This document shows, piece by piece, positions 4,652 to 21,260 of a stretch of DNA of 21,260 bases (the stretch's first letter is position 1; each line of letters starts with the position of its first letter). The notes beneath the pieces are model-generated. The model did no database searches and had not been told where the DNA came from. It saw only the letters and a list, made by a program, of their open reading frames with translations. A program made the translations under genes and the position numbers. The DNA comes from a virus, in the IMG/VR virus record IMGVR_UViG_3300006802_000713, positions 1 to 21,260 of that record. One strand, written 5' to 3'.

Positions 4652-4653
4652 GG

Positions 4654-4740
4654 CTAGAGGCTCCGTGAGAGAGTGGCGAGGATGTACGCCCAAAGGATCG
4701 AATTGAGCGCGGTCAGGATGTAGGCGAGGTGGCGGCGCAT
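4654..4740 (-). CDS. 28-aa membrane microprotein
   Basis: A very short gene that is easily missed. It encodes MRRHLAYILTALNSILWAYI and eight more residues: a basic start followed by a single hydrophobic helix. It fits exactly between neighbours. The stop of the upstream gene is four bases before its ATG (TGA-CGCC-ATG), and its own TAG is two bases before the next ATG. GGAG stands ten bases before the start, inside the end of the upstream gene, as at several other starts in this cluster. The function is unknown. The exact packing and shared initiation pattern are the reasons to accept it. Confidence 0.5.
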   Translation of the reverse strand: MRRHLAYILTALNSILWAYILATLSRSL

Positions 4741-4744
4741 GGCG

Positions 4745-4873
4745 TCAATGCTCCGAGTGGCGGCGATGCTTGCAGGCTTCGCGTTCGTGGCGGACGTAGG
4801 CGACGGTGCCCAGCGTGGCGAACGCGAGGATCAGCGCGAGGCCGCGGAAGATGAGGCGGAAGAAGTCAACCAT
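4745..4873 (-). CDS. 42-aa single-pass membrane protein
   Basis: The product is MVDFFRLIFRGLALILAFAT and 22 more residues. It has one N-terminal hydrophobic helix (about residues 4-26) followed by a short, very basic His/Arg/Lys tail (YVRHEREACKHRRHSEH), suggesting N-out/C-in membrane insertion. The ATG overlaps the last 8 bases of the preceding gene and has GAGG six bases upstream. Its last codons, S-E-H-stop, carry the GGAG used by the next gene. No family was recognised. It could be a spanin-like, holin-modulating or exclusion peptide, but nothing in the sequence decides this. Confidence 0.55.
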   Translation of the reverse strand: MVDFFRLIFRGLALILAFATLGTVAYVRHEREACKHRRHSEH

Positions 4874-5174
4874 CGCAGTCCTCAACAGTCACTTCCGGAC
4901 CTTCAATCCACGGGGCGGGCGTGGTGGGCAACACGTCCAGATTCAGATGGCGCGCGCCTTTGGGCCCGAGAAAAGCCAGCACATATTCCCGCGTCGTGGT
5001 TTTGCCCGGATAGAACGAGGGAAAGTCTTTTACGGTGCGAGTGTCGGCGACCCATGCGCGCTTGCGTTGAGCCATCAAGCGCTTGATAGCTTTGTCTTGC
5101 GATTCGCCGGGCTTTGCGAAGCACTCCAACTTCGCGTTAAAAGTAAGTTGCAAGTGCTGAGTTTCAGTAATCAC
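4866..5174 (-). CDS. Small phage protein, unknown function
   Basis: This is a 102-aa soluble protein starting VITETQHLQLTFN. The GTG at 5174 is chosen because GGAG stands nine bases before it, the same spacing as the other cluster starts. It also begins four bases after the upstream TGA. The in-frame ATG at 5210 would overlap the lipoprotein gene by 32 bases and lacks a ribosome site. The middle is basic (AIKRLMAQRKRAW), followed by a hydrophobic strand (REYVLAFLGPKGARHLNL) and an acidic end. It may bind nucleic acid or a protein partner, but no family was recognised. Confidence 0.62.
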   Translation of the reverse strand: MITETQHLQLTFNAKLECFAKPGESQDKAIKRLMAQRKRAWVADTRTVKDFPSFYPGKTTTREYVLAFLGPKGARHLNLDVLPTTPAPWIEGPEVTVEDCDG

Positions 5175-5178
5175 TTTT

Positions 5179-5316
5179 TCAGTCTCCAGATTGAGGGGTG
5201 AGGCAGTCATCGATGCACCCGACGCAGCTGTCCGTGATGCACTCGGCAGTGTCGGGATCGCTGGGCGGGTTCGCGCATGCGAGGGCGAGCGCGAGGGCGA
5301 GGGTGAGGCGCAGCAT
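5179..5316 (-). CDS. 45-aa cysteine-rich predicted lipoprotein
   Basis: The product starts MLRLTLALALALAC. That is a short basic-hydrophobic signal with a lipobox-like ALAC, placing a lipidated cysteine at residue 14. The mature part is only about 31 residues, acidic, with four further cysteines in the spacing C-x4-C-x2-C-x3-C (residues 26-38). The frame is open upstream to 5559, but that antisense-like extension is rejected. The ATG lies one base after the stop of the 142-aa gene, so it probably reinitiates there. Phage lipoproteins of this size are known as superinfection-exclusion factors (phage T5 Llp) or as Rz1 outer-membrane spanins. The lack of a Pro-rich Rz1 pattern and of an Rz partner makes the former more likely, as an inference. 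Confidence 0.6.
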   Translation of the reverse strand: MLRLTLALALALACANPPSDPDTAECITDSCVGCIDDCLTPQSGD

Positions 5317-5317
5317 G

Positions 5318-5746
5318 TCAGCGAAAGAAGCGCTGTGCCACGCCGCGGGAGAGCTCGCGCTTTGCTGCACCGATCGGGCCGTCTCCGGCTTCGCGCCAGT
5401 AGTTCCACAGCGCGTAGGACAGCACGTTAGCCACTGCGCGCCGGTACTCGGTAGGCCAATACTGGCCAGTGCAGTAGTCGAGAGTGAACACGCCGGGCGC
5501 GGTTTCCGTGATGCTGAGGCGGCCGGAGTGGGCATGCTTCGCGGCGTGCAGGATGTCATCGGCCGTGATGCTGTCGCGCCAGCTGACCGCGCGGATTAGC
5601 TCTTCGGCGTGGTGTAGATCCTTCGTGATGCTGCGCACCTCGGAGCGATACGCTTTTAAGTCGCCATAGTTGGCGAAGTCAAGGCCGGGCCGTTGCGAGA
5701 CGAAGCGCTGCAGGGCGTCGATAAGGGATTGCTTGCGGGCTTCCAT
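5318..5746 (-). CDS. Conserved phage protein (ITADDIL...GQYWPTEYR type), unknown function
   Basis: This is a 142-aa soluble protein. The first half is helical and charged (MEARKQSLIDALQRFVSQRP; AYRSEVRSITKDLHHAEELI). It is followed by SWRDSITADDILHAAKHAHSGRLS and the distinctive segment YCTGQYWPTEYRRAV. I recognise this arrangement from hypothetical proteins of Burkholderiales phages and prophages, whose function is not established. The ATG is preceded by the recurring cassette GGAGACCTACACCATG, the same as two other genes of the cluster. It is the largest well-conserved protein in the left half of the cluster. Confidence 0.82.
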   Translation of the reverse strand: MEARKQSLIDALQRFVSQRPGLDFANYGDLKAYRSEVRSITKDLHHAEELIRAVSWRDSITADDILHAAKHAHSGRLSITETAPGVFTLDYCTGQYWPTEYRRAVANVLSYALWNYWREAGDGPIGAAKRELSRGVAQRFFR

Positions 5747-5767
5747 GGTGTAGGTCTCCAGAGTGAG

Positions 5768-6031
5768 TTAAGCGGTTTTGTGCGGGCCGATACGTCGCAT
5801 GGCATCCGCGAGGGATTCGACGATGACACCCCCGTAACCTACACGGATAAACGTGGTGCCGTCGCCTTTGCTCCGGTCAAGATCAAGGGACCAATGCCTG
5901 TTGCGTTCGCGCCGGTAAACGCAAACCGGATCGCCCATGGCGAGGGCTGCCTTGATGGCTTGAGCGCGCGTCTTCACTGTCACGCCGTGCGCGCCGCCGA
6001 TTCCGCCGCGGGGGCAAATGTGGTACGTCAT
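5768..6031 (-). CDS. Small phage protein, unknown function
   Basis: This is an 87-aa protein, MTYHICPRGGIGGAHGVTVK onward. The ATG is four bases after the upstream TGA (TGA-CACC-ATG), with the ribosome site GGAG inside the last codons of the upstream gene. The sequence suggests a small alpha/beta fold: KTRAQAIKAALAMGDPVCVYRRERNRHWSLDL, then FIRVGYGGVIVESLADAMRRIG. A longer reading frame to 6394 antisenses the next gene and is not accepted. The GGYGGV-like glycine turns and the paired helices fit the small domains common among phage early proteins. No function can be assigned. Confidence 0.7.
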   Translation of the reverse strand: MTYHICPRGGIGGAHGVTVKTRAQAIKAALAMGDPVCVYRRERNRHWSLDLDRSKGDGTTFIRVGYGGVIVESLADAMRRIGPHKTA

Positions 6032-6035
6032 GGTG

Positions 6036-6527
6036 TCAGTCCTCCGAATCCAGCGCGGCTTCGCGCTCTTCCTCTTCCATGCGCGCGGCTTCCTCTGCCT
6101 GATACTCGCGCTCAGACTCCGCGGCACAACGGGCTTCCTCGTCTGCAGCTGCGCGGGCTTCGTCCTCGTCTGCGTAGACGGTGGCAGAGACTGCGGAAGA
6201 CATGCCCTTGCCCATGCTGTAGCCTGCGAGGAATCGGCCGTGAGGCAGCCGGAGGATGATTCCGCGCATGGTTTGATCTCCGAATTCGTCGCAGTACCAC
6301 TCGGTATCAGATGCCCACTCCCAGCGTTTGCAGGGCATGCCGGCATCGCCGAGATAGAACCCGCGGCCACGGTTATCGTCCGGGCGCGGCGCATGGTAGT
6401 AACCGCCGTAGACCTTACGGGGTTCGCGCTGGCGCCGGAGCGCGGCCGGGCCGATTGCGAGGGTCGCCACGTAGCGCGGGAACGTGAAGCCCGCGAAAGT
6501 GAATTCAGGTGTCAGGGGGCGTTGCAT
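6036..6527 (-). CDS. Small phage protein with acidic coiled-coil tail, unknown function
   Basis: This 163-aa protein is the longest of the cluster. The N-terminal two thirds look globular, with GFYLGDAGMPCKRWEWASD and DEFGDQTMRGIILRLPHGRF. The last 45 residues are very acidic and helical (ADEDEARAAADEEARC, then EEEEREAALDSED), as in DNA-mimic or scaffold-type tails. The ATG has GAGG nine bases upstream, formed by the previous gene's own stop codon. The gene's final codons S-E-D-stop supply the ribosome site of the next gene. I believe related hypothetical proteins occur in other proteobacterial phages, but no function is established. An acidic anti-restriction role is only a guess. Confidence 0.72.
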   Translation of the reverse strand: MQRPLTPEFTFAGFTFPRYVATLAIGPAALRRQREPRKVYGGYYHAPRPDDNRGRGFYLGDAGMPCKRWEWASDTEWYCDEFGDQTMRGIILRLPHGRFLAGYSMGKGMSSAVSATVYADEDEARAAADEEARCAAESEREYQAEEAARMEEEEREAALDSED

Positions 6528-6538
6528 GGTGTCAATCC

Positions 6539-6748
6539 TCAGTAGTTGCCTGCGCGCAGCGCGGATGCCATTTCAGCGGCGGAGAAGCCCGTGCCACCGA
6601 GAGGCACGTGCAGGTGATAGGCACCGAAAGAATCCGGGCCGATGACAACCGCGCCACGCAGCGCGATGCGATAGCGCTTGCGAAACTCAGTGAGCGCGGT
6701 TTGCGCTGTGCGCTTGTCAGTGAACGATGCGGGGATGCGGTGCAGCAT
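6539..6748 (-). CDS. Small phage protein, unknown function
   Basis: This is a 69-aa protein starting MLHRIPASFTDKRTAQTALT. The ATG at 6748 is four bases after the upstream TAA (TAA-CGCC-ATG), the same geometry as other genes here, though the upstream ribosome site is weak. That favours translation by reinitiation. In-frame starts further upstream overlap the previous gene and are disfavoured. The protein is basic at its N-terminus and helical. A short strand segment AVVIGPDSFGAYHLHVPLGG follows, then a helix. No family or function was recognised. Confidence 0.6.
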   Translation of the reverse strand: MLHRIPASFTDKRTAQTALTEFRKRYRIALRGAVVIGPDSFGAYHLHVPLGGTGFSAAEMASALRAGNY

Positions 6749-6752
6749 GGCG

Positions 6753-6977
6753 TTAGCGCTTTTGTTGCATGCGTTGAATGTCTGCCCACGTGTAGCCAAA
6801 AATGAGGTTAGTGGGGGCGTCTGTGTCGCGTTCTACAAACCAATCGCGCTCGTCGGTTTCGTATCCTTCCGCGTCAACGCGGCTTCGGGAATAGACACTG
6901 TGGTTTATTTCGCCTAGCGCTCGCGCGGTTTCGCGCGCTTCGGTTTCGCTGAAAGGCCCCGCTACGGTGATTTGCAT
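6753..6977 (-). CDS. Small phage protein, unknown function
   Basis: This is a 74-aa protein, MQITVAGPFSETEARETARA onward. The ATG is preceded by GGAGACCCACACCATG, one base different from the cassette used by three neighbours. The longer in-frame region to 7250 antisenses the adjacent gene and is excluded. A short strand, a helix with ETEARETARALGEI, an acidic polar centre (VDAEGYETDERDWFVERDTD) and a C-terminal amphipathic helix (TWADIQRMQQKR) are visible. It resembles other small acidic phage early proteins in composition only. No function is assigned. Confidence 0.68.
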   Translation of the reverse strand: MQITVAGPFSETEARETARALGEINHSVYSRSRVDAEGYETDERDWFVERDTDAPTNLIFGYTWADIQRMQQKR

Positions 6978-6996
6978 GGTGTGGGTCTCCAGAAAG

Positions 6997-7326
6997 TCAG
7001 AAGAGAGTGAAAAGCGCGCGCTTCTCAATCGTTGTGATGGCCGGCGATGCCCAAGCATTCGGGGCTGTGCGATCGCTACGGCCGAAGCGCTCCAGATCCG
7101 CACGCATGCCACGCGGCGCGCCAAGCTCGCCTTTGGCCATGGAGAGTGCGCGCTCGATAGCGTCGCGCTTCGTCGTGCACACAGAGAACGATTCAGAGAG
7201 GCAGCCCGGAATGTGCCACTCTGCGACCCAGACCATGCGCCGGAGCGCACGGGCTTGCACGTCCTGATAGCTCAGGAATTGACCGTCGTTGATCGCTTGC
7301 AGGGCTTCATAGAAAGAGAGTTTCAT
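6997..7326 (-). CDS. Small phage protein, unknown function
   Basis: This is a 109-aa protein starting MKLSFYEALQAINDGQFLSY. It has the exact cassette GGAGACCTACACCATG before the ATG. The first helix and strand (ALQAINDGQFLSYQDVQARALRRMVWV) recall the small domains found in many phage hypothetical proteins that begin with a short helix followed by a DG-turn. The C-terminal half is basic and helical (TTKRDAIERALSMAKGELGA). Three cysteine, tryptophan and histidine-rich positions (AEWHIPGCLSESFSVC) could suggest metal binding, but the spacing is not a recognised zinc motif. The function is unknown. Confidence 0.7.
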   Translation of the reverse strand: MKLSFYEALQAINDGQFLSYQDVQARALRRMVWVAEWHIPGCLSESFSVCTTKRDAIERALSMAKGELGAPRGMRADLERFGRSDRTAPNAWASPAITTIEKRALFTLF

Positions 7327-7358
7327 GGTGTAGGTCTCCAGAGTGAGTCAGAAGAGGG

Positions 7359-7592
7359 TCAACGGCGGAAACGGGTAGCTGTTTCACCGAAGTGCTTTTG
7401 CCCGTAGGCAACTGCGGCCTTGACGGTGCGGAAAGACAGGTAGTTGTCGTGCGCCCGAACACCCGTGTCTCCGTTCGGGTTCGCCCAATAGAGAGCGAAC
7501 CACGGTCCACGAGTCTCAGGCATCAGGTCGTCCCAGACTTCAAGGCGCGCGGCGTACTGCGTGCCGTTTGAGAGGTTGACTGTGTGCGGCAT
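7359..7592 (-). CDS. Small phage protein, unknown function
   Basis: This is a 77-aa protein starting MPHTVNLSNGTQYAARLEVW. The ATG at 7592 lies four bases after the upstream TAA (TAA-CACC-ATG). GAGG is encoded by the last codons of the upstream gene, which decides this start over one at 7631. It looks like a compact beta-rich fold: RGPWFALYWANPNGDTGVRAHDNYLSF, then a C-terminal helix TVKAAVAYGQKHFGETATRF. That pairing resembles small single-stranded-DNA-type or host-factor-binding domains, but no family could be named. Confidence 0.66.
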   Translation of the reverse strand: MPHTVNLSNGTQYAARLEVWDDLMPETRGPWFALYWANPNGDTGVRAHDNYLSFRTVKAAVAYGQKHFGETATRFRR

Positions 7593-7596
7593 GGTG

Positions 7597-7887
7597 TTAG
7601 TCCTCAGAGTAGGCGGAGGGGATACGTTCACCGGAATGAGTGCAGAACAGCGCGTGGTCTTCGTAATTCACGTCGACGCCCAGCACGCGCCAGCCATCGT
7701 TCGCGCTGTCGCGGATGCTCCGCAAAACTTGACGGATGTTCGCGCGCACCGAGTCAAAGCTAAGCGCTTCGCCATCGTCGGCAACAAAGTACAAGGGGTA
7801 ACCACCAGGCCAAGCGAAGGGGCCGGCGCGTAGCGTTTCGCGCAGCTGCAAACCGTTGACGATGGTTCGGTGATGGCGGGATTGCAT
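7597..7887 (-). CDS. Small conserved phage protein, unknown function
   Basis: This is a 96-aa protein, MQSRHHRTIVNGLQLRETLR onward, with the distinctive segment AGPFAWPGGYPLYFVADDGE. The pattern GGYP-x-F-x-x-D-G-E followed by a Cys/His segment is common in small hypothetical proteins of proteobacterial phages. Here the later part reads NYEDHALFCTHSGERIPSAY, with only one cysteine of the usual pair, so a zinc site would be incomplete. The ATG is four bases after the upstream TGA (TGA-CACC-ATG), with GGAGGG inside the upstream gene's end. Its own last codons S-E-D-stop form the next ribosome site. The function is unknown. Confidence 0.75.
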   Translation of the reverse strand: MQSRHHRTIVNGLQLRETLRAGPFAWPGGYPLYFVADDGEALSFDSVRANIRQVLRSIRDSANDGWRVLGVDVNYEDHALFCTHSGERIPSAYSED

Positions 7888-9340: not shown

Positions 9341-9370
9341 TTTTTGCAAATTTGACTTTGTTTGCAAAAA
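9341..9370. promoter_or_regulatory. Perfect 10-bp inverted repeat, candidate operator
   Basis: TTTTTGCAAA (9341-9350) and TTTGCAAAAA (9361-9370) are exact inverse complements with a 10-base spacer, about 40 bases before the first gene of the packaging operon. The centre-to-centre distance of 20 bp, about two helical turns, suits a dimeric DNA-binding protein. The arms are AT-rich, so an RNA hairpin terminator is less likely. Partial promoter elements (TTGACT at 9352) lie within it, but no good -10 follows. Confidence 0.5.
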
Positions 9371-9407
9371 TCAGCACGTTCAACATACGAACCGAAAGCC
9401 AACTGCC

Positions 9408-9575
9408 GTGCCCATCGAACTCCGACCCGTCAACGCCAAAACGCACGCAGAACTTGCGGGCGAACTCGCCGGTCGAATCACCGCTTTGCTGCACGAGTAC
9501 GACGGACTGCCGCTCGCGCTCGTCTTGGGCACGTTGCGCGTGGTCGAACACGAACTGATTGCCGACGCCCGATGA
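9408..9575 (+). CDS. Small conserved phage protein preceding terminase
   Basis: This 55-aa protein starts at GTG 9408 (VPIELRPVNAKTHAELAGEL). It is helical and ends HEYDGLPLALVLGTLRVVEHELI. Small proteins of this shape, with a DGLPL-x-x-V-x-G-x-L-x-x-VEH segment, often precede phage terminase small-subunit genes. Their role is unknown. The stop overlaps the terminase start in ATGA, so the two are coupled. There is only a weak ribosome site before the GTG, and the exact start is uncertain. The frame is open further upstream, but across the terminator-like GC block, which is not plausible coding sequence. Confidence 0.62.
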   Translation: MPIELRPVNAKTHAELAGELAGRITALLHEYDGLPLALVLGTLRVVEHELIADAR

Positions 9576-10324
9576 ACGCCATCACACGACCCGCCGAGCC
9601 CGGTGCACTCGCACTGTCCGAACCGAAATACGAAGCCTTCGTGCAGCACTATGTTGCGTGCGGCGGCGCCAGGGCCGAAGCGGCTCGCCTCGCGGGGGTC
9701 ACCGTTGTCACGGCGAAGAAGCTGCTCAACGACCAGGACGTGGTCGACAGGATCCGCTTCATCAACGCGCAGCAGTTCCGCGAGATCGGCGTCACCGCCG
9801 AGCGCGTCAAGCAGGAACTCGCGTACGCAGCCTTCCAGAACGCCGCGGACCTCTTCGACGCCGACGGCAACCTCATCCCGGTGCACGCGCTGCCCGACGA
9901 GGTGGCCCGCACCATCACCCAGGTCGAGGTCGAAGTGCGCGACAAGCTGGTGAAGGACGAGGACGGCAACCCCACCGTCGAGAGCGTCACGATCAAGAAG
10001 ATCAAGCGCGTCGACAAGCTCGCCGCCCTGACCCTGTTCGCGCGGCACTTCAAGATCGTTGGCGCCGAGGACGACGGGGTGAACATGCTGGCGTCGGCGC
10101 TGGCCGACCGGCTCAACGCCGCCAAGCGGCGCATCGGTGAGCCGCCGCCCGTTGACCAGGTGATCGACGACGCCACGTACCCGGCGCCGCGCGCCGTCGT
10201 GACCGACTCGTCGGCCGACACCGAGGCGCGTATCATCGGGGAGGGCGTGCTGGTGCAGGACGAACCCGCCACGGACACGTTCGCTTCCCCTGAGCAACCG
10301 GAGAACGACGATGAAATTTGGTGA
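9572..10324 (+). CDS. Terminase small subunit
   Basis: This 250-aa protein is the DNA-recognition part of the packaging motor. It would bind the pac or cos site and recruit the large subunit. Residues about 20-65 form the typical terminase_2 helix-turn-helix: YEAFVQHYVACGGARAEAAR, then LAGVTVVTAKKLLNDQDVV. A coiled helical part follows (FREIGVTAERVKQELAYAAF), then a beta/hinge section (DEVARTITQVEVEVRD) and a disordered acidic tail. The ATG start overlaps the previous stop (ATGA). An in-frame extension from 9362 is possible but would overlap the 55-aa gene. The position directly before the poly-Thr gene and the large terminase supports the call. Confidence 0.88.
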   Translation: MNAITRPAEPGALALSEPKYEAFVQHYVACGGARAEAARLAGVTVVTAKKLLNDQDVVDRIRFINAQQFREIGVTAERVKQELAYAAFQNAADLFDADGNLIPVHALPDEVARTITQVEVEVRDKLVKDEDGNPTVESVTIKKIKRVDKLAALTLFARHFKIVGAEDDGVNMLASALADRLNAAKRRIGEPPPVDQVIDDATYPAPRAVVTDSSADTEARIIGEGVLVQDEPATDTFASPEQPENDDEIW

Positions 10325-10598
10325 CTCCACCACCACCACCACCACCACCACCACCACCACCCACAAGCCGCGCGCAATCGCCCCCCAGAACTTCCGCGCG
10401 CAGGCCACCGGCGTCGGCCAGACCACGCGCGCTTCGCGCATGACCGGCGCCGCCCGCGCACAGCGCGTCGCGGACCAGATCCCCGCCGGCTGCCGTGCCT
10501 GCGTGCCCGAGGCCGAGGGGTACCCCGCCGCCAGCCCGGCGATGCCCGAGATGGGCGGCCCGGGCGCCATCTACCAGACCAAGGTCAACGGCCGATGA
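10311..10598 (+). CDS. Poly-threonine small phage protein between terminase subunits
   Basis: This is a 95-aa protein that begins MKFGDS, followed by eleven consecutive Thr residues. They are encoded by eleven identical ACC codons (10329-10361). The rest is basic and small-residue rich, with one short Cys-containing segment (PAGCRACVPEAEGYPA). Its ATG overlaps the terminase small-subunit end by 14 bases, and its stop overlaps the terminase large-subunit start (ATGA). It is thus fully integrated in the operon. The function is unknown. Its place between the two terminase genes suggests a packaging role, as an inference. Confidence 0.7.
   Translation: MKFGDSTTTTTTTTTTTHKPRAIAPQNFRAQATGVGQTTRASRMTGAARAQRVADQIPAGCRACVPEAEGYPAASPAMPEMGGPGAIYQTKVNGR
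10329..10361 (+). repeat. ACC trinucleotide microsatellite (11 units)
   Basis: Eleven identical ACC codons in a row, inside the small gene between the terminase subunits. Gain or loss of whole units changes the threonine tract without a frameshift. Slippage by one or two bases would break the gene. Confidence 0.95.
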
Positions 10599-12355: not shown

Positions 12356-12394
12356 TTGTCCCGCATCGCACAACCTGTGCATAATCTGCGCCCA
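12356..12394 (+). promoter_or_regulatory. Promoter before portal gene, possibly leaderless
   Basis: TTGTCC (12356-12361) and CATAAT (12380-12385) are 18 bases apart, and the portal ATG is only 8 bases after the -10. Transcription would begin at or next to the ATG. No Shine-Dalgarno sequence is present between -10 and start. The same arrangement recurs before the gene at 20447. Confidence 0.45.
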
Positions 12395-14694
12395 TGGCTG
12401 TCCCGCGCCTTGGTCAAACCGCACCCTCCGCGCCGCAACCGCGCGGCCTCGCGTCGGCCATGCCGCCGAAGACAACCTCCGGGGTCAACCCGCTGATCCG
12501 GCAACTCGGCTTGGCCGAGGTGCAGAAGCGGGACACGACGGTGCCCGACGAGGGCACCGATCTGTTTGACGAGGACAGTCACTGGCAGGCCGCCTCCGCG
12601 CTCGCCGGCCACGTGCGCCAAGCCTGGATGCGCAACAAGCTGTCCAAGGTCAAGGTCGACATGAAGCTGCTGGCCGACCTCCGGGCCCGCCGCGGCGTCT
12701 ACAGCGCCGCGCAGCAGGCCCAGATGGAGCAGGTGCTCGGCGGCATGAACATGATCTGGGCGCCGCTGACCGAGGTCAAGTGCCGCGCCGCGTCAGCCTG
12801 GATCCGCGAGATCCTGCTGCCCGCCGGCGAGCAGCCCTGGGGCGTCGAGCCCACCCCGATCCCCGATCTGCCGATGCCGATCAAGAAGGGCATCGTCGGC
12901 AAGGCCATCCAACAGGCACAGGCCCTGATGCAGCAGACGGCCGAGGCCGGTGGCGGCGTCATGGCGCCGGAAGAGTTCCGGCAGCTGGTCAGCGAACTCG
13001 GGGAGAAGCTACGCGACGAGGCCGAGACGGCCATGGCCGATGCGGCCGCGCGCCGCGCCAAGCGCATGGAGCGGCAGATCGCCGATCGGCTCGCCCAGGG
13101 CGGCTACGAGAAGGCCATGGACGCCTTCATCGAGGACTTCGTCACCTACCCGGCGGCGATCCTCAAGGGGCCGATCTACACCCGGCACAAGACGCTGGAA
13201 TGGGGCGAGAACTTCAAGCCCATCGTCCGCAACGACCCAGCACCCACCTGGGAGCGCGTCAGCCCGTTTGACGCCTACCCGGCGCCGCAGTCGCGCTCGC
13301 CGCAGCAGGGGGATTTCATCGAGCGGGTGCGCTTCCGTCGCGAGGAACTGTACGACCTCAAGGGCGTGCCCGGCTATCAGGACGACCAGATCGACCAGGC
13401 CCTGATGGACTACAGCAACGGCCATCTGGAAGGCTGGCTGTGGACCGAGGCCGAACGGCAGCGTCTGGAGCAGGAGACGCTGTACATGTGGCTGTCGCCC
13501 CCGGGCGTCATCGACGCGCTCAACTACTGGGGCAGCGTGCCCGGGTGGAAGCTCAAGGCGTGGGGCGTGGCCGACGACCTGGAGGACTCGCAGGAGTACG
13601 AGGTCAACGTGCTGCTGTGCGGCCGCTACATCCTCTACGCCCGCATGAACCCGGACCCGATGGGCATCCGGCCGTACTTCAAGGCGTGCTACGACGAGAT
13701 CCCCGGTGCATTCTGGGGCCGCAGCATCCCGGACCTGGCCAGCACCCCGCAGCAGATGTGCAACGCGATCGCGTGCGCGCAGGCCAACAACATGAGCATG
13801 GCCTCCGGGCCGATGGTCTGGGTGCACGCCGACCGGTTGGCCGACGGTGAGCAGACCATGGAAATCTTCCCGTGGAAGCTCTGGCAGCTGAAGTCGGACC
13901 CGACCCAGGGCGTGAACCCGGGCATCGGCTTCTTCCAGGCTGCCGACAACACGAACAACCTGATGCTGCTCTACGAGAAGTGGGAGATGCGCGCCGACGA
14001 CGCCACCGGCGTGCCGCGCTACACCTACGGTAACGGGGTGGCCGCCGGCGCGGGCGACACCGCGCAGGGCCTGTCGATGCTGATGAACAACGCGGCCAAG
14101 GGCCTGCGTCGCGCCATCAGCAACGTGGACATGAACGTGATCGCCCCGACGATCAACGTCACGTTCAACAACGAGATGCTCTACAACCCCGACCAGAGCA
14201 TCAAGGGCGACAACATCGTGGTGCCGCGCGGCGCCGCGGCGATCCTGATCCGCGAGTCGGCCCAGCAGCGCCGCATGCAGTTCCTGACGATGACGGCCAA
14301 CCCCATCGACGCGCAGATCATCACGGCGAAGTACCGCGCCGCGCTGCTGCGCGAGGTGGCCAGCGCGATGGAACTGCCGGTCGACAAGACCGTGCCCTCC
14401 GACGAGGTGCTGGCGCAGGAACAGGCCGCGCAGGCCGAGGCCATGCAGAAGCAGGTGGAAGAGCAGCGCCAGTTCGAACGCGAGAAGATCCAGTTCCAGG
14501 CCGAGGTCGACGCCAGCAAGGAACAGGCAATCGCCGCTCGCGAAGACCAGAACAAGCAGGGCGACTTCATTCGCGAGATCGTCAAGCAGGCCGTAGCCGG
14601 CGCGATGGCCGAGGCCAAGAGCAAGCAGCCTGCGAAGAAGGTCAAGTACAACTACGACGACTCCGGTGTGATCACCGGCGCCGAAGCAGAATAG
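12394..14694 (+). CDS. Phage portal protein (head-tail connector)
   Basis: This 766-aa protein forms the dodecameric ring at one head vertex, to which the terminase docks and through which DNA enters. The segment HWQAASALAGHVRQAWMRNK, then ADLRARRGVYSAAQ and LTEVKCRAASAWIREILLPA, is typical of P22-like or podovirus portals. The middle part contains EWGENFKPIVRNDPAPTWER and the conserved FWGRSIPDLASTPQQMCNAI. Residues about 670-725 form a charged coiled coil (AQAEAMQKQVEEQRQFEREK), as in the P22 portal barrel. Its position after the large terminase supports the call. No classic ribosome site precedes it. Confidence 0.93.
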   Translation: MAVPRLGQTAPSAPQPRGLASAMPPKTTSGVNPLIRQLGLAEVQKRDTTVPDEGTDLFDEDSHWQAASALAGHVRQAWMRNKLSKVKVDMKLLADLRARRGVYSAAQQAQMEQVLGGMNMIWAPLTEVKCRAASAWIREILLPAGEQPWGVEPTPIPDLPMPIKKGIVGKAIQQAQALMQQTAEAGGGVMAPEEFRQLVSELGEKLRDEAETAMADAAARRAKRMERQIADRLAQGGYEKAMDAFIEDFVTYPAAILKGPIYTRHKTLEWGENFKPIVRNDPAPTWERVSPFDAYPAPQSRSPQQGDFIERVRFRREELYDLKGVPGYQDDQIDQALMDYSNGHLEGWLWTEAERQRLEQETLYMWLSPPGVIDALNYWGSVPGWKLKAWGVADDLEDSQEYEVNVLLCGRYILYARMNPDPMGIRPYFKACYDEIPGAFWGRSIPDLASTPQQMCNAIACAQANNMSMASGPMVWVHADRLADGEQTMEIFPWKLWQLKSDPTQGVNPGIGFFQAADNTNNLMLLYEKWEMRADDATGVPRYTYGNGVAAGAGDTAQGLSMLMNNAAKGLRRAISNVDMNVIAPTINVTFNNEMLYNPDQSIKGDNIVVPRGAAAILIRESAQQRRMQFLTMTANPIDAQIITAKYRAALLREVASAMELPVDKTVPSDEVLAQEQAAQAEAMQKQVEEQRQFEREKIQFQAEVDASKEQAIAAREDQNKQGDFIREIVKQAVAGAMAEAKSKQPAKKVKYNYDDSGVITGAEAE

Positions 14695-14729
14695 CCGCCG
14701 CCCAATATGTAGGCCTTCAGGAGATACCC

Positions 14730-15035
14730 ATGAGTTTCACTGCCAATCGACAGGCCGAGATCCTCAACGCCATCAGCGCCGTCGCCGCGCTTGTGACCGA
14801 CACCTCTACGGTCGACAGCTTGCTTGAGCAACTGGCCGTTGTCACCGCAGAGCGTGACGCCGCGCTGCAGCACGTGTCGAGCCTGACCGCGGAGCGCGAT
14901 GCGGCGCTATCCGATAAAGCTGCGCTGCAAGCGCGCCTCGACGCGATCGTGGCTGACATCCAGGCCTTGACCGCAGCGGATGCGCAAGAAGACGCGGCGC
15001 GCGCTGCGATCTTGGCCAAGGCTCAAGGCAACTGA
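14730..15035 (+). CDS. Small coiled-coil protein sharing an N-terminal module with the lyase
   Basis: This 101-aa protein starts MSFTANRQAEILNAISAVAA and has AGGAG six bases before the ATG. After about residue 30 it is a near-continuous coiled coil, with two copies of LTAERDAAL (54-62 region) and a third related VTAERDAAL. Its first 28 residues are similar to those of the following polysaccharide lyase (xxAEIL...LV..T..V, 10 identities in 27 aligned positions). That suggests both attach to the same virion structure. The proposed role, as trimeric stalk or adaptor, is an inference. Confidence 0.68.
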   Translation: MSFTANRQAEILNAISAVAALVTDTSTVDSLLEQLAVVTAERDAALQHVSSLTAERDAALSDKAALQARLDAIVADIQALTAADAQEDAARAAILAKAQGN

Positions 15036-15036
15036 C

Positions 15037-17034
15037 ATGGCCACGTTCGATGCGGCCAAGAAGGCCGAGATCCTGAGCGGTCTTGCGTCGCTATCGACGT
15101 TGGTTGCGCAGACGGATGTGGTGGCCGCGCCACCCGCGCCCGCGCCCGCGCCTTCACCGGCTCCTACGCCAGCCCCGGCTGGTGGCACCGGATTCGCTGT
15201 GCGGCCGTTCCTGTTCCGCGCAGATGAGGCGCGACTGCGCGCTTCGATCGCCGCAGGCGACCCCGAGGCAGTTGGATCGGCCAGCAACGTGGACGGTCAG
15301 CCGCAAGGTTTCCTGACGCGGATGAACGCGATCTACACCAACCCAGGACAGACGAGCCTGCATTGGGTTGCCATGGCCGCCTGGTTGCAGGGCAACGCGA
15401 CGATGGCCCGCTCGGTGCGCGATCAGGTCATGAGCATCGTCAATGCCACGCCCAACGGCGTGACAGGCCACGGTAGCGACTTCCAGCACCACGAAGACAC
15501 GATCCTTCGCATCGCGGCCAGCACCGACCTGTGCTTTTCGCAGTTCAGCGCGAGCGACCTTGTCACGGTGGCTTCCTACATCAACGGCACATGCGACAAC
15601 TGGGTCCGCGAGAAGAACACGTTCTGGCCGGGCGATGCGCCGTTCAACAACTACTGGCAGAACGGCTTTCTCGGCATGGTGGCCGCCGGCATCTGCACGG
15701 AAGGGTTCAACCCGCGCGCCGCCGAGTGGCGCAGCCTGACGCAGACCATGGCCCAGCAGTACGCGCAAGCCTGCGTGAACGGCTACAGCGGGCCAGTGCA
15801 GACCGAGGGGCACTACTACGCCCAGCACGTACAGCATGCCATCTGGGGCATGTACCTGTTTGACCGCGCGATGGGGACATCGCTGCTAGCCGCCACGCGC
15901 TTCGATGCGGCCGAGCACCTGCAACTGCAGATGTACCAGCAGCGCTCGCACCTCGTGAACTTCTTCCACGTCGGCTCAGAGGCCAACGATGTGGCTGCGC
16001 CGCATGGGTTCCTGACCTATCCGTACTGGCACCAGCTCGCGGTGCTTGCCGAATCGGCAGGGCAGACGCAGCGAGCGGCCGAAGCCAAGGCGATGCTGTC
16101 CTACGTGATGCCGCGCGCCACTTGGTATCAGTTCAGCAAGGCCCCCTACGCCTTCTACTGGAACATCCGGCGCATTGCCTCGCAGCCGCTGACGGCCAAG
16201 AGCGACCTGATGTATGCGGCCCCGACGCCCGGCGCCGGCCTTGTGGGCGTGCGCAGTGCATGGCAACCCGGGGCAGAAGCGCGATCAGCGCTCATGTTCG
16301 CCACGCAGTTCGGCGGCGGGCAGGGCGCGCACTGGTCGCACAGCAATGCGGATGCGCCTGGCTTTCAGTGGGATGCCAATGGCGAGTGGCTGGTCACGGA
16401 TCCAGGCTTCTTTCACAGCTCTGGTATCTTGGGGGAAGCAGGGTCCACTTACCGCGGATCGATCGCCAACATCGTGTTTCTGGCTGGCGTCGAGTCGAAC
16501 TACTCAGGCGGTCAGCCTCGTGTCGTGTTTGCCGAAGACAACCGCTCCGCTTCGGTCCCGCACCAGTACGTGCAGATCAACGCGCAGCCGTACTGGACGA
16601 CATGCTCTGTCAACCGCCGCGAGTATGTGTGGTTGGACGATCTGCGCGCCGCCGTGGTCTTTGACCGGATCATCGGCGGAACGGCAAGATCCTGGCGCAT
16701 CCACACGCAGACAGCCCCAGTTGTCTCCAGCGCTTCGGCCTCCGTGCAGACGGCCGGCGGCCGGACCATGACTGTGCGCAATCTGCTGCCGGCTGGCGGT
16801 TGGGCGGTCGATGACCTTCTGGCCGCGGGCGTCACGACGCGCCAGTGCTATCGGCTGCGTCAAGACGACGGCACCGATGACTACCGCTCGCTCAAGGTGC
16901 TTGACGTTGGCGGCCGAGTGGTTTCCGCATCGATGTCGGCTGGCCCCGGCTATGTGCAAGCCGAGCTTTTGATCGGTGGAGCAACACGGTCGGTAAGGTT
17001 CTTCGATGACGGGTCGCACGCTTTGGTGGCCTGA
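15037..17034 (+). CDS. Phage polysaccharide lyase / depolymerase, heparinase-chondroitin-lyase-like
   Basis: This 665-aa protein probably cleaves acidic capsule or exopolysaccharide by beta-elimination, exposing the host surface. Residues 1-30 form an N-terminal docking segment. A Pro/Ala linker follows (33-49). Then comes an all-helical region resembling the alpha/alpha toroid of PL8-type lyases, with FNNYWQNGF (N204, N205, W207) and EGHYYAQHVQH (H259, Y260, Y261, H264) at positions where catalytic Asn, His and Tyr are expected. The C-terminal beta region carries HWSHSNADAPGFQW (432-445) and LVTDPGFF, as in heparinase II/III-like domains. The ATG at 15037 is one base after the previous stop. 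No signal peptide is present, consistent with a virion component. Substrate is unknown. Confidence 0.75.
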   Translation: MATFDAAKKAEILSGLASLSTLVAQTDVVAAPPAPAPAPSPAPTPAPAGGTGFAVRPFLFRADEARLRASIAAGDPEAVGSASNVDGQPQGFLTRMNAIYTNPGQTSLHWVAMAAWLQGNATMARSVRDQVMSIVNATPNGVTGHGSDFQHHEDTILRIAASTDLCFSQFSASDLVTVASYINGTCDNWVREKNTFWPGDAPFNNYWQNGFLGMVAAGICTEGFNPRAAEWRSLTQTMAQQYAQACVNGYSGPVQTEGHYYAQHVQHAIWGMYLFDRAMGTSLLAATRFDAAEHLQLQMYQQRSHLVNFFHVGSEANDVAAPHGFLTYPYWHQLAVLAESAGQTQRAAEAKAMLSYVMPRATWYQFSKAPYAFYWNIRRIASQPLTAKSDLMYAAPTPGAGLVGVRSAWQPGAEARSALMFATQFGGGQGAHWSHSNADAPGFQWDANGEWLVTDPGFFHSSGILGEAGSTYRGSIANIVFLAGVESNYSGGQPRVVFAEDNRSASVPHQYVQINAQPYWTTCSVNRREYVWLDDLRAAVVFDRIIGGTARSWRIHTQTAPVVSSASASVQTAGGRTMTVRNLLPAGGWAVDDLLAAGVTTRQCYRLRQDDGTDDYRSLKVLDVGGRVVSASMSAGPGYVQAELLIGGATRSVRFFDDGSHALVA

Positions 17035-17057
17035 AATGGTGGCCTGAAATGGTGGCC
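17024..17057 (+). repeat. 13-bp tandem repeat at the lyase stop codon (2.6 copies)
   Basis: The unit TGGTGGCCTGAAA is repeated twice, plus eight bases of a third copy. The first copy contains the lyase stop codon TGA (17032-17034). It looks like a recent slippage duplication. The 104 bases from 17035 to 17138 hold no gene. The only other structure there is a weak hairpin, AAGGG-ATTGGA-CCCTT, near 17105. Confidence 0.9.
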
Positions 17058-17138
17058 AAGAGTTCTGACGCTGGGTGTGCCGGCCACGCAAATGGCGCAC
17101 GTAAAGGGATTGGACCCTTAACTTCTATCGAGGACACA

Positions 17139-17294
17139 ATGAACGAATTGAAGCCTGGCGAAGCAGGGATGCAAGCTACCATAGAGATCACGCGGGCCGC
17201 TACCGGCAAGGTGGAGGTCTACACACTTACGTTCACGCCGACCAAGGAAGACGGCAAGAACGAGCAAGAACCGGAAGCGAAAGGGGAAAAGTAA
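17139..17294 (+). CDS. 51-aa phage protein, unknown function
   Basis: The small protein MNELKPGEAGMQATIEITRA, with 31 more residues, has a strand segment (VEVYTLTFTP) and a charged tail (KEDGKNEQEPEAKGEK). ATG 17139 is preceded by GAGG six bases upstream. An in-frame start further upstream (17049) lies in the repeat region and is disfavoured. Its stop TAA overlaps the next ATG (TAATG), so translation is coupled to the following structural-type gene. No family was recognised. Confidence 0.62.
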   Translation: MNELKPGEAGMQATIEITRAATGKVEVYTLTFTPTKEDGKNEQEPEAKGEK

Positions 17295-17686
17295 TGGCTG
17301 TCACTCACATCACTGCTCTGCGCACCACGCTGGCGACCGCCGTGCGCGACGCCATCGACGGTGGCGCTGGCGCCGGCAAGCTGGTGTTCCGGCTCTCTGG
17401 CACCGTCAGCGCGCCCGGCACCGCCGTCGCCACGCTGACGCTGTCGGACCCTTGCGGCACTGTGTCGGACGGTGTGCTGACCTTTTCGGCAATCACCAGC
17501 GACACGAACGCCACCGGCAACGCTTCGCCGGTGGCAACCGCCACGTTGCAGACGAGCGCCGACTCGGTGCAAGTGCACTGCGCCGTGGCGGCATCGGGCT
17601 CGGACATCAACATGACCGGCGGCCTGACCATCGGCGCAGGCGATACGGTGTCGTGCTCGTCGCTGACCTACACCGCCCCGGCGTGA
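17294..17686 (+). CDS. Beta-rich phage structural-type protein
   Basis: This 130-aa protein begins MAVTHITALRTTLATAVRDA, then GGAGAGKLVFRLSG, and ends GDTVSCSSLTYTAPA. I recognise the pattern: a short helix, then G-x-GKLVF, a TLTLSDP strand, DTNATGNASPVATATL, and a final GDTV-x-x-x-SLTYTAP. Small phage proteins of this type occur among structural genes of many proteobacterial prophages. The family is usually annotated hypothetical. It is probably a small head or tail decoration protein, as an inference. It starts inside the stop of the previous gene. Confidence 0.8.
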   Translation: MAVTHITALRTTLATAVRDAIDGGAGAGKLVFRLSGTVSAPGTAVATLTLSDPCGTVSDGVLTFSAITSDTNATGNASPVATATLQTSADSVQVHCAVAASGSDINMTGGLTIGAGDTVSCSSLTYTAPA

Positions 17687-17687
17687 C

Positions 17688-17960
17688 ATGCGACCCGGCG
17701 ACACCATCACCGGCGTTACCAAGCCGCAGAACTCGGTCTTCGTCTGCGGTATGCAGCAGATCATCCAGCGCAACCAGCAAGGCGTGCGCGCGGAGGTGGC
17801 GCTGGTTCTTCAGTACACGGGGCGGCAGAAGTTCATCCGCCTCACCGACAGTCTGGCTTCGGCTCGGACTGAACCCACCGGCGCGCAGATTCTGAACGCC
17901 TTCAGCACGCTTGAGGGTCGCCTGCTGACCACGATTCAGACGAGGCTGGACTCCCTATGA
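17688..17960 (+). CDS. 90-aa phage protein, unknown function
   Basis: The protein begins MRPGDTITGVTKPQNSVFVC and has a mixed strand and helix composition (EVALVLQYTGRQKFIRLTDS), followed by a helix (TGAQILNAFSTLEGRLLTTI). The ATG lies one base after the preceding stop, and its end overlaps the next gene by 4 bases (ATGA). No family was recognised. Its position between two beta-rich structural-type genes suggests a virion or assembly component, as an inference. Confidence 0.68.
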   Translation: MRPGDTITGVTKPQNSVFVCGMQQIIQRNQQGVRAEVALVLQYTGRQKFIRLTDSLASARTEPTGAQILNAFSTLEGRLLTTIQTRLDSL

Positions 17961-18739
17961 GCTACCTGCCCGTGCAAATGCTGCCGGCCGCTGCTGGCTA
18001 CGTCACGGCAAGCACCCGGGGGACGACCGTCAACTCGGGGTCGGCCGGTGCTGTTGGCTCGTGGGTTGAGCTTACGAGCAGCCTGCCGTATGACGCGATG
18101 GGCTTCTACGTGACGACCATCAACGTCAACTCCGAACAGCACAAGATCGAGATCGGCATTGGCGGGTCGGGTTCGGAGCAGACGCTGGGCGAGGTCACTC
18201 TCAGCCTGGACGGCACTTGCGTGAACCACTTCGTTCCGATTCCGGTTGCGTCCGGTACTCGTGTTGTCGCTCGATGCCAAGCGGGCAACGTGTCAGGCTC
18301 TGCTGTTCACATCGTGCCCGTCCGCGGCAAGACCGATGATCCAAAGGTCTCGCGCGGCGTCCTGTTGAACTGGTCGGACGCCAACGGCCTCGGCGCCATT
18401 GACCCGGGCGGCACGGCCAACACCAAGGGCTCGTGGACTGAGCTGACGGCATCGACTTCGCGAGATGTTGCCGCGATCACCCTATTCTTCGACATCAAGG
18501 GCAACGCTGGCGGCCGGTGGGGCGTGGATGTCGGCATCGGCGCCGCGGCTTCTGAGGTCACCATCATCGAGAACCTGGGAGTGAACAGCGAGGCGTTCCG
18601 TTCTGCTGCACGACCTTCCACTATCGGCCCGATCTGGACCCCGATCCCCTCGGGGACACGCATCGCGGTACGCGTGCAGTGCTCTGACAACACGGCCACG
18701 CAGCGCAACCTTGGTGTCGCCATGGTTCTCTGGGAGTAG
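17957..18739 (+). CDS. Phage protein with two tandem beta-domain repeats
   Basis: This 260-aa protein contains two copies of one roughly 120-residue module (about 20-128 and 143-260). The corresponding segments are GSWVELTSSLPYDAMGFYV with GSWTELTASTSRDVAAITL, KIEIGIGGSGSEQTLGEV with WGVDVGIGAAASEVTIIE, and VPIPVASGTRVVARCQ with TPIPSGTRIAVRVQC. This is a real internal duplication. The pattern of strands with glycine turns suits a receptor-binding, fibre or decoration protein. The ATG overlaps the previous stop (ATGA). No named family was recognised, and the lyase and fibre-like neighbours suggest a role at the virion surface. Confidence 0.72.
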   Translation: MSYLPVQMLPAAAGYVTASTRGTTVNSGSAGAVGSWVELTSSLPYDAMGFYVTTINVNSEQHKIEIGIGGSGSEQTLGEVTLSLDGTCVNHFVPIPVASGTRVVARCQAGNVSGSAVHIVPVRGKTDDPKVSRGVLLNWSDANGLGAIDPGGTANTKGSWTELTASTSRDVAAITLFFDIKGNAGGRWGVDVGIGAAASEVTIIENLGVNSEAFRSAARPSTIGPIWTPIPSGTRIAVRVQCSDNTATQRNLGVAMVLWE

Positions 18740-18742
18740 CAC

Positions 18743-19081
18743 ATGGCAATCACACAAGAATCATCCGGCTCCCAGACGGCTACCGTCACGACCGAGCACA
18801 CGCTCGCCACGATCACGACGCAGAAGTCCTTCGTGCTCAATGTGGATTGCGCCAACCTGGCCGCGGGTGAATACGTCGAGCTGAAGGTCAAGCGCGACGT
18901 GCGAAGCGCAGACACGACGCGCACGGTGCACTCGCGCATCGTCTCGTGGGCAGAGGCCGGGATCACGCCTGTGATTCAGATGCCGGTGGTCCCTGCTGGC
19001 GGTGGTGAGTTCGTCTGCACGCTGAGGCAGCTGAACGGCACCGGCCGCGCGTTTCCGTGGGCGATTGACACTCCGGGCTGA
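18743..19081 (+). CDS. Small beta-rich phage protein
   Basis: This 112-aa protein begins MAITQESSGSQTATVTTEHT and contains short strands: TITTQKSFVLNVDC, YVELKVKRDVRS and FVCTLRQLNGTG. It has two cysteines and no signal. Its ATG lies three bases after the preceding stop. Proteins of this kind (short Thr/Ser-rich N-terminus, then a compact beta fold) occur next to phage tail or fibre genes, though no function is established. It is probably a virion-surface component, as an inference. Confidence 0.7.
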   Translation: MAITQESSGSQTATVTTEHTLATITTQKSFVLNVDCANLAAGEYVELKVKRDVRSADTTRTVHSRIVSWAEAGITPVIQMPVVPAGGGEFVCTLRQLNGTGRAFPWAIDTPG

Positions 19082-19086
19082 CCACC

Positions 19087-20406
19087 GTGCTTGACGATCT
19101 GCTGCTGCTACAGCCGGCCGCAGGCGCGACAACGCACGACGCAAGCGGTGCGCTGAGTGCGCAGGCCGCGGGGATTGCGGGGACCGCTGCCCATTTGGCG
19201 CTCCACGCAACTTCTGGCGCCCTTGACGCCCAAGCGGCGACAGTCGCCGGCGCTGCCGCGCACCAGCATGCAACGACCGGCGCGCTCGATGCTCAAGCCG
19301 CCACGGTTGCCGGAATTGCAACGCACCTGACGCTGCACGCCACAAGTGGCGCGCTTGAGTCTCAGGCAGCGACGATTGCGGGCGCAGCAGCGCACCAGCA
19401 CGCGACATCCGGCGCCCTGAGCGCTCAAGCGGCGGCGATTGCGGGCTCGGCAGACCACACTGTTGCTGGCGCGACGCACACCACGACTGGTGCGCTTGCT
19501 GCTCAAGACTCGACGCTGGCTGGTTCGTCAACGCACCTGACGTTGCACAGCACCTCCGGGGCGCTGTCGGCGCAGGAGTCGACGGTTGCAGGTTCCGTGG
19601 TGCACCCGCACACGACGACCGGCGCTTTGTCGTCGCAGGCAGCAACCGTTGTTAGTTCTGCGGCTCATGAGCACGCAACCACCGGTGCGCTGGCCGCAGG
19701 CGCGGCAGAGACCGCCGGGGCGGCGCTGCGCCTCGACGCCGGAGTGCATGCGGCCGAAGGCGCGCTGCAGGCGCAGGAGGCAGCGCTTTCCGGCAGCGCC
19801 GCACTGACGCCCAACCCGGACAGCGCGCTCACCGACCCGAAGTTCCAGGGCCCGTCGCACAACACCCGCATCCGGTGGGAGCGCAAGCGCAAGGAAGAAG
19901 CCGCGGCGACCGAGGAACCCGACCTGGTCGAGCCACCGGCGCCGGAGCCGGTCGCGCCGACATCGAAGCCCCGCAGCACAGGGCTGGGCGAGATCGCTCC
20001 GCCGCCCGTCGAAGTTCGTGCGCCGGAGATCAAGGTCCCCGAGATCAAGGTCATCGCCCCGGCAAAGACCGCGGCGGCCAAGCCGCAGCCTGCGCCAGCT
20101 GCCGCGCCCGGCGTCGAAAAGCCCTCACCGACCGTTGTCGCGGCCCCGCCGGCGGGCCCATCTGTTGACCCGGCTCTTCAGCAGGTCGCCGACGCGGTCA
20201 TTGCGCAAGTGACGGCGGTGCTTGAAGGGGCGGTCACCGGACTCACCCGTGAAGTGGTGCGTCTTCAGAAGCAGGTGCAGCAGCAAGCTGAGACGCACGC
20301 GCGGGAGATGACGCGCGTCACTGAGATGCTGCGCGCCGCAGAGAAACGCGAGATCAACCGCGCTCGCGCAGAAGCGCTCGCCCGCAAGATCGCCGAAGAC
20401 GACTGA
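19087..20406 (+). CDS. Repeat-and-coiled-coil phage protein with ten HATSGAL-type repeats
   Basis: This 439-aa protein starts with GTG 19087. Residues about 16-240 hold ten copies of a 20-26-residue unit with the core H-x-T-[ST]-GAL-x-[AS]-Q-x-x-x-[VIL]-AG-x-x-x-H, many of them near-identical. A Pro/Ala-rich hinge (about 270-345) and a C-terminal helical coiled coil (about 345-439; LTREVVRLQKQVQQQAETHA) follow. Regular repeats plus a trimerising coil suggest an elongated fibre, spike or tail-associated protein. Related repeats occur in other phage and bacterial proteins, of unknown function. The start lacks a good ribosome site and may reinitiate from the upstream stop, five bases away. Confidence 0.75.
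   Translation: MLDDLLLLQPAAGATTHDASGALSAQAAGIAGTAAHLALHATSGALDAQAATVAGAAAHQHATTGALDAQAATVAGIATHLTLHATSGALESQAATIAGAAAHQHATSGALSAQAAAIAGSADHTVAGATHTTTGALAAQDSTLAGSSTHLTLHSTSGALSAQESTVAGSVVHPHTTTGALSSQAATVVSSAAHEHATTGALAAGAAETAGAALRLDAGVHAAEGALQAQEAALSGSAALTPNPDSALTDPKFQGPSHNTRIRWERKRKEEAAATEEPDLVEPPAPEPVAPTSKPRSTGLGEIAPPPVEVRAPEIKVPEIKVIAPAKTAAAKPQPAPAAAPGVEKPSPTVVAAPPAGPSVDPALQQVADAVIAQVTAVLEGAVTGLTREVVRLQKQVQQQAETHAREMTRVTEMLRAAEKREINRARAEALARKIAEDD
19132..19806 (+). repeat. Ten degenerate coding repeats of about 60-78 bp
   Basis: These encode the ten HATSGAL-type units. At DNA level they share stretches such as GGCGC(G/C)CT followed by GC(T/C)CAAGC. Unit length alternates roughly 63 and 69 bases, giving pairs that end in AAHQ and in THLTL. 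They are diverged enough to be old, but similar enough to recombine. Confidence 0.85.
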
Positions 20407-20774: not shown

Positions 20775-21260
20775 ATGCAGCAGGCTTCACAGCCTTCGAA
20801 CGAAACGCGACTCCCTCGCGCCGTCCTCCGCCGCTCGGCCGCTGTTCAACAGCGCTACGAAGCGAGCACCAAGCCGGCCGACTCGGAAACGCCGTCCCCC
20901 GCCGTCGCGGCGACCCCGGAAACCCCGGCCGACACGACTGCGAACACGCCTGACGCCAACGCCCTGAAGACGCCCGCCGTCGAGGATCCGCGGCATAGCG
21001 ACCCGACCTACTGGAAGCACCGCTTCGAAGCAGTCGCCGGCCGCCTCCGCGCCCGAGAAGACGAGCACAAGGCCGTCGTCGCCGAGTTCCGTCAGGAGAT
21101 TGACAGGTTGACCGCCGAGGTCAGCCGACTCCAGCAGCAAGCACCTTCGGCTGCGCCCACGATCGACCTCAAGCAGTTCTTCACGGACGAGCAGATCAAG
21201 AACCTGGGCGAAGAAGACGCGATGGCGATGGCGCAGGCCGCCGTCACCGCGGCAACCAAG
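20775..21260 (+). CDS. Scaffold-like phage protein, N-terminal part (3' end outside window)
   Basis: The frame is open to the right edge (162 codons seen). ATG 20775 has GGAG eight bases upstream. The first 70 residues are disordered, rich in Pro, Ala, Thr and acidic residues. A coiled coil follows at about 78-122 (HRFEAVAGRLRAREDEHKA, then EFRQEIDRLTAEVSRLQQQ), then DLKQFFTDEQIKNLGEEDAM. The order disordered N-terminus, coiled coil and a short F-T-D-E-Q-I-x-x-L-GE segment is that of phage scaffolding proteins that guide procapsid assembly. The major capsid gene would be expected next, beyond the window. A head-fibre or internal protein is the alternative. Confidence 0.7.
   Translation, partial: MQQASQPSNETRLPRAVLRRSAAVQQRYEASTKPADSETPSPAVAATPETPADTTANTPDANALKTPAVEDPRHSDPTYWKHRFEAVAGRLRAREDEHKAVVAEFRQEIDRLTAEVSRLQQQAPSAAPTIDLKQFFTDEQIKNLGEEDAMAMAQAAVTAATK

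Follow-up and report, generated by a model that had tools for sequence, protein, structure and literature searches.

Capsule-degrading enzymes of phages are known mostly as β-helical tailspikes, and automatic annotation has been trained on such folds. In the DepoScope survey, an α/α-toroid was seen in 11 of 984 phage depolymerase candidates, this fold having been omitted from the training set; to the knowledge of its authors, some uncommon folds have never been studied in phages (PMC11326577). The heparinase/alginate-lyase fold is likewise rarely seen in phages.

Several points of comparison are bacterial. In the PL35 lyase GAGase II, the catalytic residues are Asn192 (together with Asn191), Tyr246 and His401, and a Mn ion is surrounded by His403, Asp405, Asp421 and His457; mutants of these ligands had their activity abolished or strongly reduced, and in GAGase III, His188 has been tied to alginate activity (PMC12088678). 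The triad of the PL15 oligo-alginate lyase Atu3025 consists of His311, Tyr365 and His531. On the viral side, the phage phiM6 is a terrestrial member of the marine HMO-2011 group (PMC6256558).

Here, we describe a gene from a single IMG/VR virus record, a genome fragment of 21,260 bases, which we refer to as the window in the following (Table 1). The predicted fold of its product is familiar from bacteria, but the phage setting is unusual. Judging from its sequence, we lean towards reading the product as a two-domain lyase of the heparinase II/III-DUF4962 type, probably fixed to the phage particle and cutting a uronic-acid-containing polymer of the host.

Table 1. Features of the lyase locus in the window and the basis of their assignment
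Feature	Position	Strand	Basis
Portal gene, upstream border of the block	12394..14694	+	phrog_332 head-tail adaptor (E 8e-50); phrog_1216 portal (E 1e-8); annotated relatives
Hypervariable block holding the lyase, wholly replaced in a close relative	14695..19827	+	blastn against L003
Coiled-coil-like protein of 101 aa whose N-terminal peptide recurs in the lyase; may be its anchor partner	14730..15035	+	sequence comparison
Putative α/α-toroid polysaccharide lyase, 665 aa	15037..17034	+	DUF4962-type profile and hhalign
Short N-terminal helix, residues 2-28, common with the 14730-15035 product; candidate virion-attachment peptide	15040..15120	+	ungapped BLOSUM62 score against shuffles
Pro/Ala-rich linker PAPAPAPSPAPTPAPAGG, anchor to enzyme	15121..15189	+	sequence
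α-helical toroid-like domain, ~residues 53-388, with motifs N204-N205 and E257-G258-x-x-Y261	15193..16200	+	profile alignment, helices in low-confidence models, motif coordinates
β-rich heparinase II/III-like domain, ~residues 389-665, with H435-x3-D439-x15-D455, R528 and D543	16201..17031	+	alignments, motif coordinates
Repeat protein, tail from 19828 conserved in L003; downstream border of the block	19087..20406	+	repeat count, comparison with L003
Scaffold gene start, truncated by the window end	20775..21260	+	98.6% identical to L003 protein

Coding status, family and fold

The reading frame 15037-17034 is a real gene. It is open, and its ATG lies 1 base past the stop of the preceding frame (14730-15035). 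Its codon use correlates with that of the portal gene at r = 0.91, compared with 0.57 and 0.48 for its own shifted frames; together with the G+C content at codon positions 1, 2 and 3 (0.63, 0.52 and 0.79), this identifies it as coding. The product starts with a short charged helix and a Pro/Ala linker, and its best 19-residue hydropathy is 1.39, which is consistent with the absence of a signal peptide stated in the initial sequence-only reading. That reading had also placed the gene between portal and scaffold, and these indeed flank it, the portal at 12394-14694 and the scaffold from 20775 onwards.

Judged by its sequence, the protein is too divergent for curated single-family models: searched alone against Pfam, PHROGs and NCBIfam, it matched no family and reached none of the curated cut-offs. 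Single-sequence searches of PDB sequences and of phage and plasmid records did not find relatives either. phmmer also matched RecA fusion constructs, but over fewer than 60 residues and at only a few bits per domain; these matches were discarded as chance, and the DNA patterns FNNYWxN[GA] (in IMG/VR) and HWxHxNADxxxF (in the genomes) yielded chance matches only.

A blind tblastn search with the protein over 644 Planctomycetota and Pseudomonadota genomes returned a few weak matches. They include three true members of the superfamily, aligned to the corresponding part of the fold: a protein with Pfam Hepar_II_III_N and Hepar_II_III_C domains (L051), one with DUF4962 and Hepar_II_III_C (L060) and one that is heparinase II-like by PDB match (L055). 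L060 and L055, both Planctomycetota proteins of the DUF4962/Hepar_II_III_C type, are among the closest in this search, and L060 partly shares the pattern G-H-S-x-x-D-A-x-G-F-x3-A-x-G-E-W-L with the phage lyase; they differ from it in most positions (16% identity over the alignment) and do not have the phage anchor.

To assess this relationship with profiles, Planctomycetota reading frames were retrieved with Pfam DUF4962, the phage protein being left out. The resulting DUF4962/heparinase II/III-like profile scored 85.3 bits over residues 28-587 of the phage protein, where the best of 300 shuffled sequences reached 5.0 and none of six other window proteins rose above the shuffle level. In hhalign, the single phage sequence matched the cleaned profile with a probability of 98.7% (E = 2.3e-16), whereas neither shuffles nor the other window proteins exceeded 0.4%. 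No match to the phage protein was obtained with a profile made from 30 Hepar_II_III_C proteins of Pseudomonadota (set B), which makes the DUF4962-like branch the closest to it. Since residues 28-587 are homologous by profile to toroid lyases, a right-handed β-helix of the tailspike kind was set aside.

We then aligned the phage protein with 18 homologues, to which it is 12-18% identical (alignment A2). In the PDB, the A2 profile reaches PL15 Atu3025, the PL35 GAGases, heparinase II, dermatan-sulfate epimerase, PL17, PL39 and PL12; as A2 is dominated by bacterial members, these matches place the family and are no second test of the phage protein. The superfamily covered in this way spans PL15, PL35, PL21, PL17, PL12 and PL39 lyases as well as dermatan-sulfate epimerase. 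Among the families initially named for comparison, PL12, PL15, PL17 and PL21 are thus reached by the family profile, whereas the matches listed do not include PL8. The phage protein alone matched none of the solved PL12, PL17, PL21 and PL39 members (PDB chains), which only the family profile reaches.

Two AlphaFold models computed without relatives were poor (pLDDT 38 and 36), so that the fold assignment rests on the sequence profiles; in these models, DSSP places helices first and strands after. A Foldseek search with the first model (pLDDT 38) gave no significant match, and PL5 toroids, which appeared at E 0.45 or worse, were disregarded. The profiles with their shuffle controls, and the catalytic triad described below, support the earlier proposal of an α/α-toroid with a heparinase II/III-like C-terminus. 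The profile alignment also supports a predicted arrangement of an α-helical N-terminal half and a β-rich C-terminal half, with which the DSSP strings agree. With an identity to its homologues of just 12-18%, their substrates cannot be carried over to the phage protein.

Active site and metal site

According to the alignments and motif coordinates, the catalytic triad is kept in the phage protein as Asn205, Tyr261 and His435. Its residues N204-N205, Y261, H435, D439 and D455 correspond to Asn191-Asn192, Tyr246, His401, Asp405 and Asp421 of GAGase II, and the His-to-Asp spacing of 20 is identical in the two proteins. For the tyrosine, the MAFFT alignment A2 gives Tyr260; Tyr261 is indicated by the HMM alignment as well as by the spacing of E-G-x-x-Y. 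Besides the triad, Arg528 and Asp543 are retained, at an overall identity of ~16%.

The metal site is less well preserved. Two of the four Mn ligands are kept, with His403, Asp405, Asp421 and His457 of GAGase II appearing as Asn437, Asp439, Asp455 and Ala477. The first metal histidine is also missing in several bacterial homologues of A2, and a degenerate metal site is therefore by itself no proof of an inactive enzyme.

Compared with the PL35 enzymes GAGase II and VII (8KHV, 8KHW), the phage protein is alike in length and in the order of its two domains, and its catalytic motifs (Asn-Asn, E-G-x-x-Tyr, His) follow one another as they do there; the GAGases are also matched by the A2 profile. 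They are, however, bacterial proteins of low identity to the phage-encoded lyase, which is changed at two of the four Mn ligands. Atu3025 (3A0O) is the best PDB match of the A2 profile (E = 1.6e-115); its Tyr365 and His531 correspond to Tyr261 and His435, while its catalytic His311 is replaced by Tyr206. Given these active-site and metal-site residues, membership in PL15 proper and in PL35 proper was dropped.

The position of His188 in GAGase III is taken by Asn204, as in glycosaminoglycan-active members. With this residue in place of the alginate-linked histidine, alginate specificity is not suggested, and the sequence may hint at a glucuronate-type substrate instead.

A variable block beside the portal gene

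In HMO-2011-type and Rhizobium phages, the relatives of the window's portal protein carry a portal annotation, and they relate the window phage to HMO-2011-type podophages and to terrestrial Rhizobium/Sinorhizobium phages. The roles of scaffold and capsid were assigned by position and from relatives; in a close relative (L003), the intact scaffold homologue is directly followed by a capsid-like gene.

The portal of this relative is 97% identical to that of the window. DNA homology (~93%) stops at the portal stop (14694) and restarts at 19828, within the 3' portion of the gene for the repeat protein (19087-20406). The intervening ~2 kb of L003 consist of unrelated genes without a lyase, and none of the other portal relatives, many of whose records are fragments, carries one. 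The third-position G+C content of the block genes (0.61-0.86, compared with 0.93 in portal and TerL) points to separate acquisition. The repeat protein itself contains ~8 imperfect copies of 61 nt (~21 aa), TTGALDAQAATVAG..., at a spacing of 63-78 nt, and has a tail that is 45.5% identical to L003. As L003 and L008 have different N-terminal parts at its position, it would seem to be a surface or fibre protein of modular build.

Beside the portal, the relatives are varied. A GDSL esterase is found in L007 and in phiM6, in the latter just upstream of the portal; phiM6 also has a cell-wall-hydrolase-like protein there, weakly seen in RHph_N3_19 as well. Tail-fibre-like proteins occupy this place in L012 and L014, a BNR-repeat protein lies somewhat further upstream in RHph_TM3_14A, and in L010 and L016, nothing was found beside the portal. 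We therefore regard the lyase as one guest in a protein-exchange slot of this phage group, and several of the exchanged proteins probably come into contact with the host surface. The esterases of phiM6 and L007 resemble the lyase in belonging to a surface-polymer-modifying class encoded beside the portal in the same phage group, but they represent an unrelated enzyme family.

The two SGNH/GDSL esterase-like genes lie at 7029-8378 in L007 and at 4804-6411 in phiM6 (L132), both assigned by Pfam. A gene beside the portal of L011 (4288-5913) was judged SGNH/GDSL esterase-like by eye only, its PHROG match being to a family without known function. RHph_N3_19 (L134) has, immediately before the portal, a gene (3851-6400) whose strongly matched FAD-dependent oxidoreductase domain (PF12831, E = 1e-59) sits behind a phage-type N-terminal region, and in L013, the lyase slot downstream of the portal holds a gene (5806-7611) for a protein that combines a methyltransferase with an MptE-like domain.

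Some further features of the window were recorded. The gene at 17957-18739 encodes a 260-aa protein whose two halves resemble each other (they align with a score of 85, compared with 31 +/- 5.5 for shuffles); this protein has one relative, in the uncultured podophage MW202627.1, and is possibly a duplicated β-sandwich decoration protein. A (CAC)n microsatellite at 10326-10361, a possible slippage site, overlaps the end of the reading frame 9362-10324 shortly before the terminase gene. At 677-3727, a primase-helicase fusion of 1016 aa combines an AEP-TOTE primase domain with PriCT_2, D5_N and DUF5906.

The lyase and the 101-aa protein encoded before it share their N-terminal peptide. In the lyase, residues 2-28 (TFDAAKKAEILSGLASLSTLVAQTDVV) align with the start of the smaller protein (SFTANRQAEILNAISAVAALVTDTSTV) at an ungapped BLOSUM62 score of 52; shuffled sequences scored 21.6 +/- 4.2, with 0 of 5000 reaching 52, and the best score among the N-termini of reading frames of at least 100 aa in the other fetched loci was 34. 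None of the other viral loci compared contained the peptide, and our searches returned no relatives of the 101-aa protein. From the sequences, the occurrence of this peptide, only 27 residues long, in two adjacent proteins would best be explained if both dock at one site on the particle or assemble with each other, which suggests a role as virion anchor.

Among known phages, we looked for the superfamily with its bacterial members. Eight of them had no family match in PHROGs, and six, searched against 50,697 phage records, matched unannotated fecal 'Bacteriophage sp.' fragments only, or nothing. As the fecal record that was opened is flagged UNVERIFIED, such fragments were not counted as phage proof. 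This record (MT835644.1, L130) has a heparinase II/III-like gene at 962-2893 that is 31% identical to L051 and could be bacterial DNA. The full alignment was too diverse for building patterns; profile patterns from two bacterial subfamilies were used instead, and a scan of IMG/VR with these, of limited sensitivity, found no relative. The toroid proteins of the DepoScope survey (PMC11326577), which were uncharacterised there, belong to the same broad fold class, and their likeness to the lyase is at this level. In view of the 11 toroid candidates among 984 and of uncommon folds that are partly unstudied, it was fair to speak of a less-described type of depolymerase, as the sequence-only reading did.

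Proposed function

We infer that the lyase is located on the virion and acts as a depolymerase on bacterial exopolysaccharide, by β-elimination on a uronic-acid-containing polymer of the host's capsule, slime or biofilm. The short N-terminal helix and the Pro/Ala linker would fix it to the phage particle. In the active site, Asn205, together with Asn204, would neutralise the uronate carboxylate, with His435 and Tyr261 serving as general base and acid, and the β-elimination would leave products with unsaturated uronate. Cleavage of the host polymer would then open a path to the cell surface. In this proposed role and in the modular build of anchor and catalytic part, the lyase resembles the β-helical tailspike depolymerases; it differs from them in its fold and in that its gene adjoins the portal and is not among the tail genes. 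More tentatively, as a possibility to which we give somewhat less than even weight, it may represent a toroid depolymerase on an exchangeable N-terminal helix, encoded in a portal-side slot that swaps surface-modifying enzymes, with a fold and chemistry unstudied in phage particles.

Several other explanations deserve consideration. Phages are known to employ soluble depolymerases that are set free at lysis, and the lyase might likewise be absent from the particle, made late and freed at lysis, degrading slime or biofilm for the spread of the progeny. The position of the gene in the structural region would allow for this, but the shared N-terminal peptide and the linker resemble an attachment device, and tail-fibre-like proteins are among the portal neighbours in relatives; we consider release at lysis unlikely, though the strongest of these alternatives. 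A former lyase that is kept as a polysaccharide-binding adhesin and no longer cuts is less probable again: the degenerate metal site, with Asn437 and Ala477 for His403 and His457 of GAGase II, and Tyr206 in place of the catalytic His311 of PL15 would fit such a loss, whereas the retention of the Asn, Tyr, His triad and of Arg528 and Asp543 at ~16% identity argues for a working enzyme, and the metal histidine is absent in several bacterial homologues too.

We see very little room for a chance acquisition that serves as an auxiliary metabolic gene inside the infected cell. The third-position G+C content of the block, which is below that of its neighbours, indicates that the gene was acquired from elsewhere, as this explanation would have it; however, no substrate inside the cell is known to us for phage members of the heparinase II/III-DUF4962 superfamily, and the location among the head genes as well as the N-terminal helix favour a role in the particle or at lysis. 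Least probable, by a little, is a uronate C5-epimerase-like enzyme that modifies the polymer and does not cut it. Dermatan-sulfate epimerase is indeed a member of the superfamily, and the A2 profile matches it (6hzn, E = 7e-53), yet the histidine that directly follows the asparagine in its Asn-His pair (His205) is Tyr206 in the phage protein, and a use of epimerisation to the phage is not evident.

The present lyase escapes Pfam, PHROGs and NCBIfam, and its fold is absent from the training of DepoScope. If it is indeed a lyase of the heparinase/alginate-lyase type, it widens the range of enzyme chemistry known in phages. The swapped portal-side block is a place to seek more surface-active enzymes in HMO-2011-type phages.
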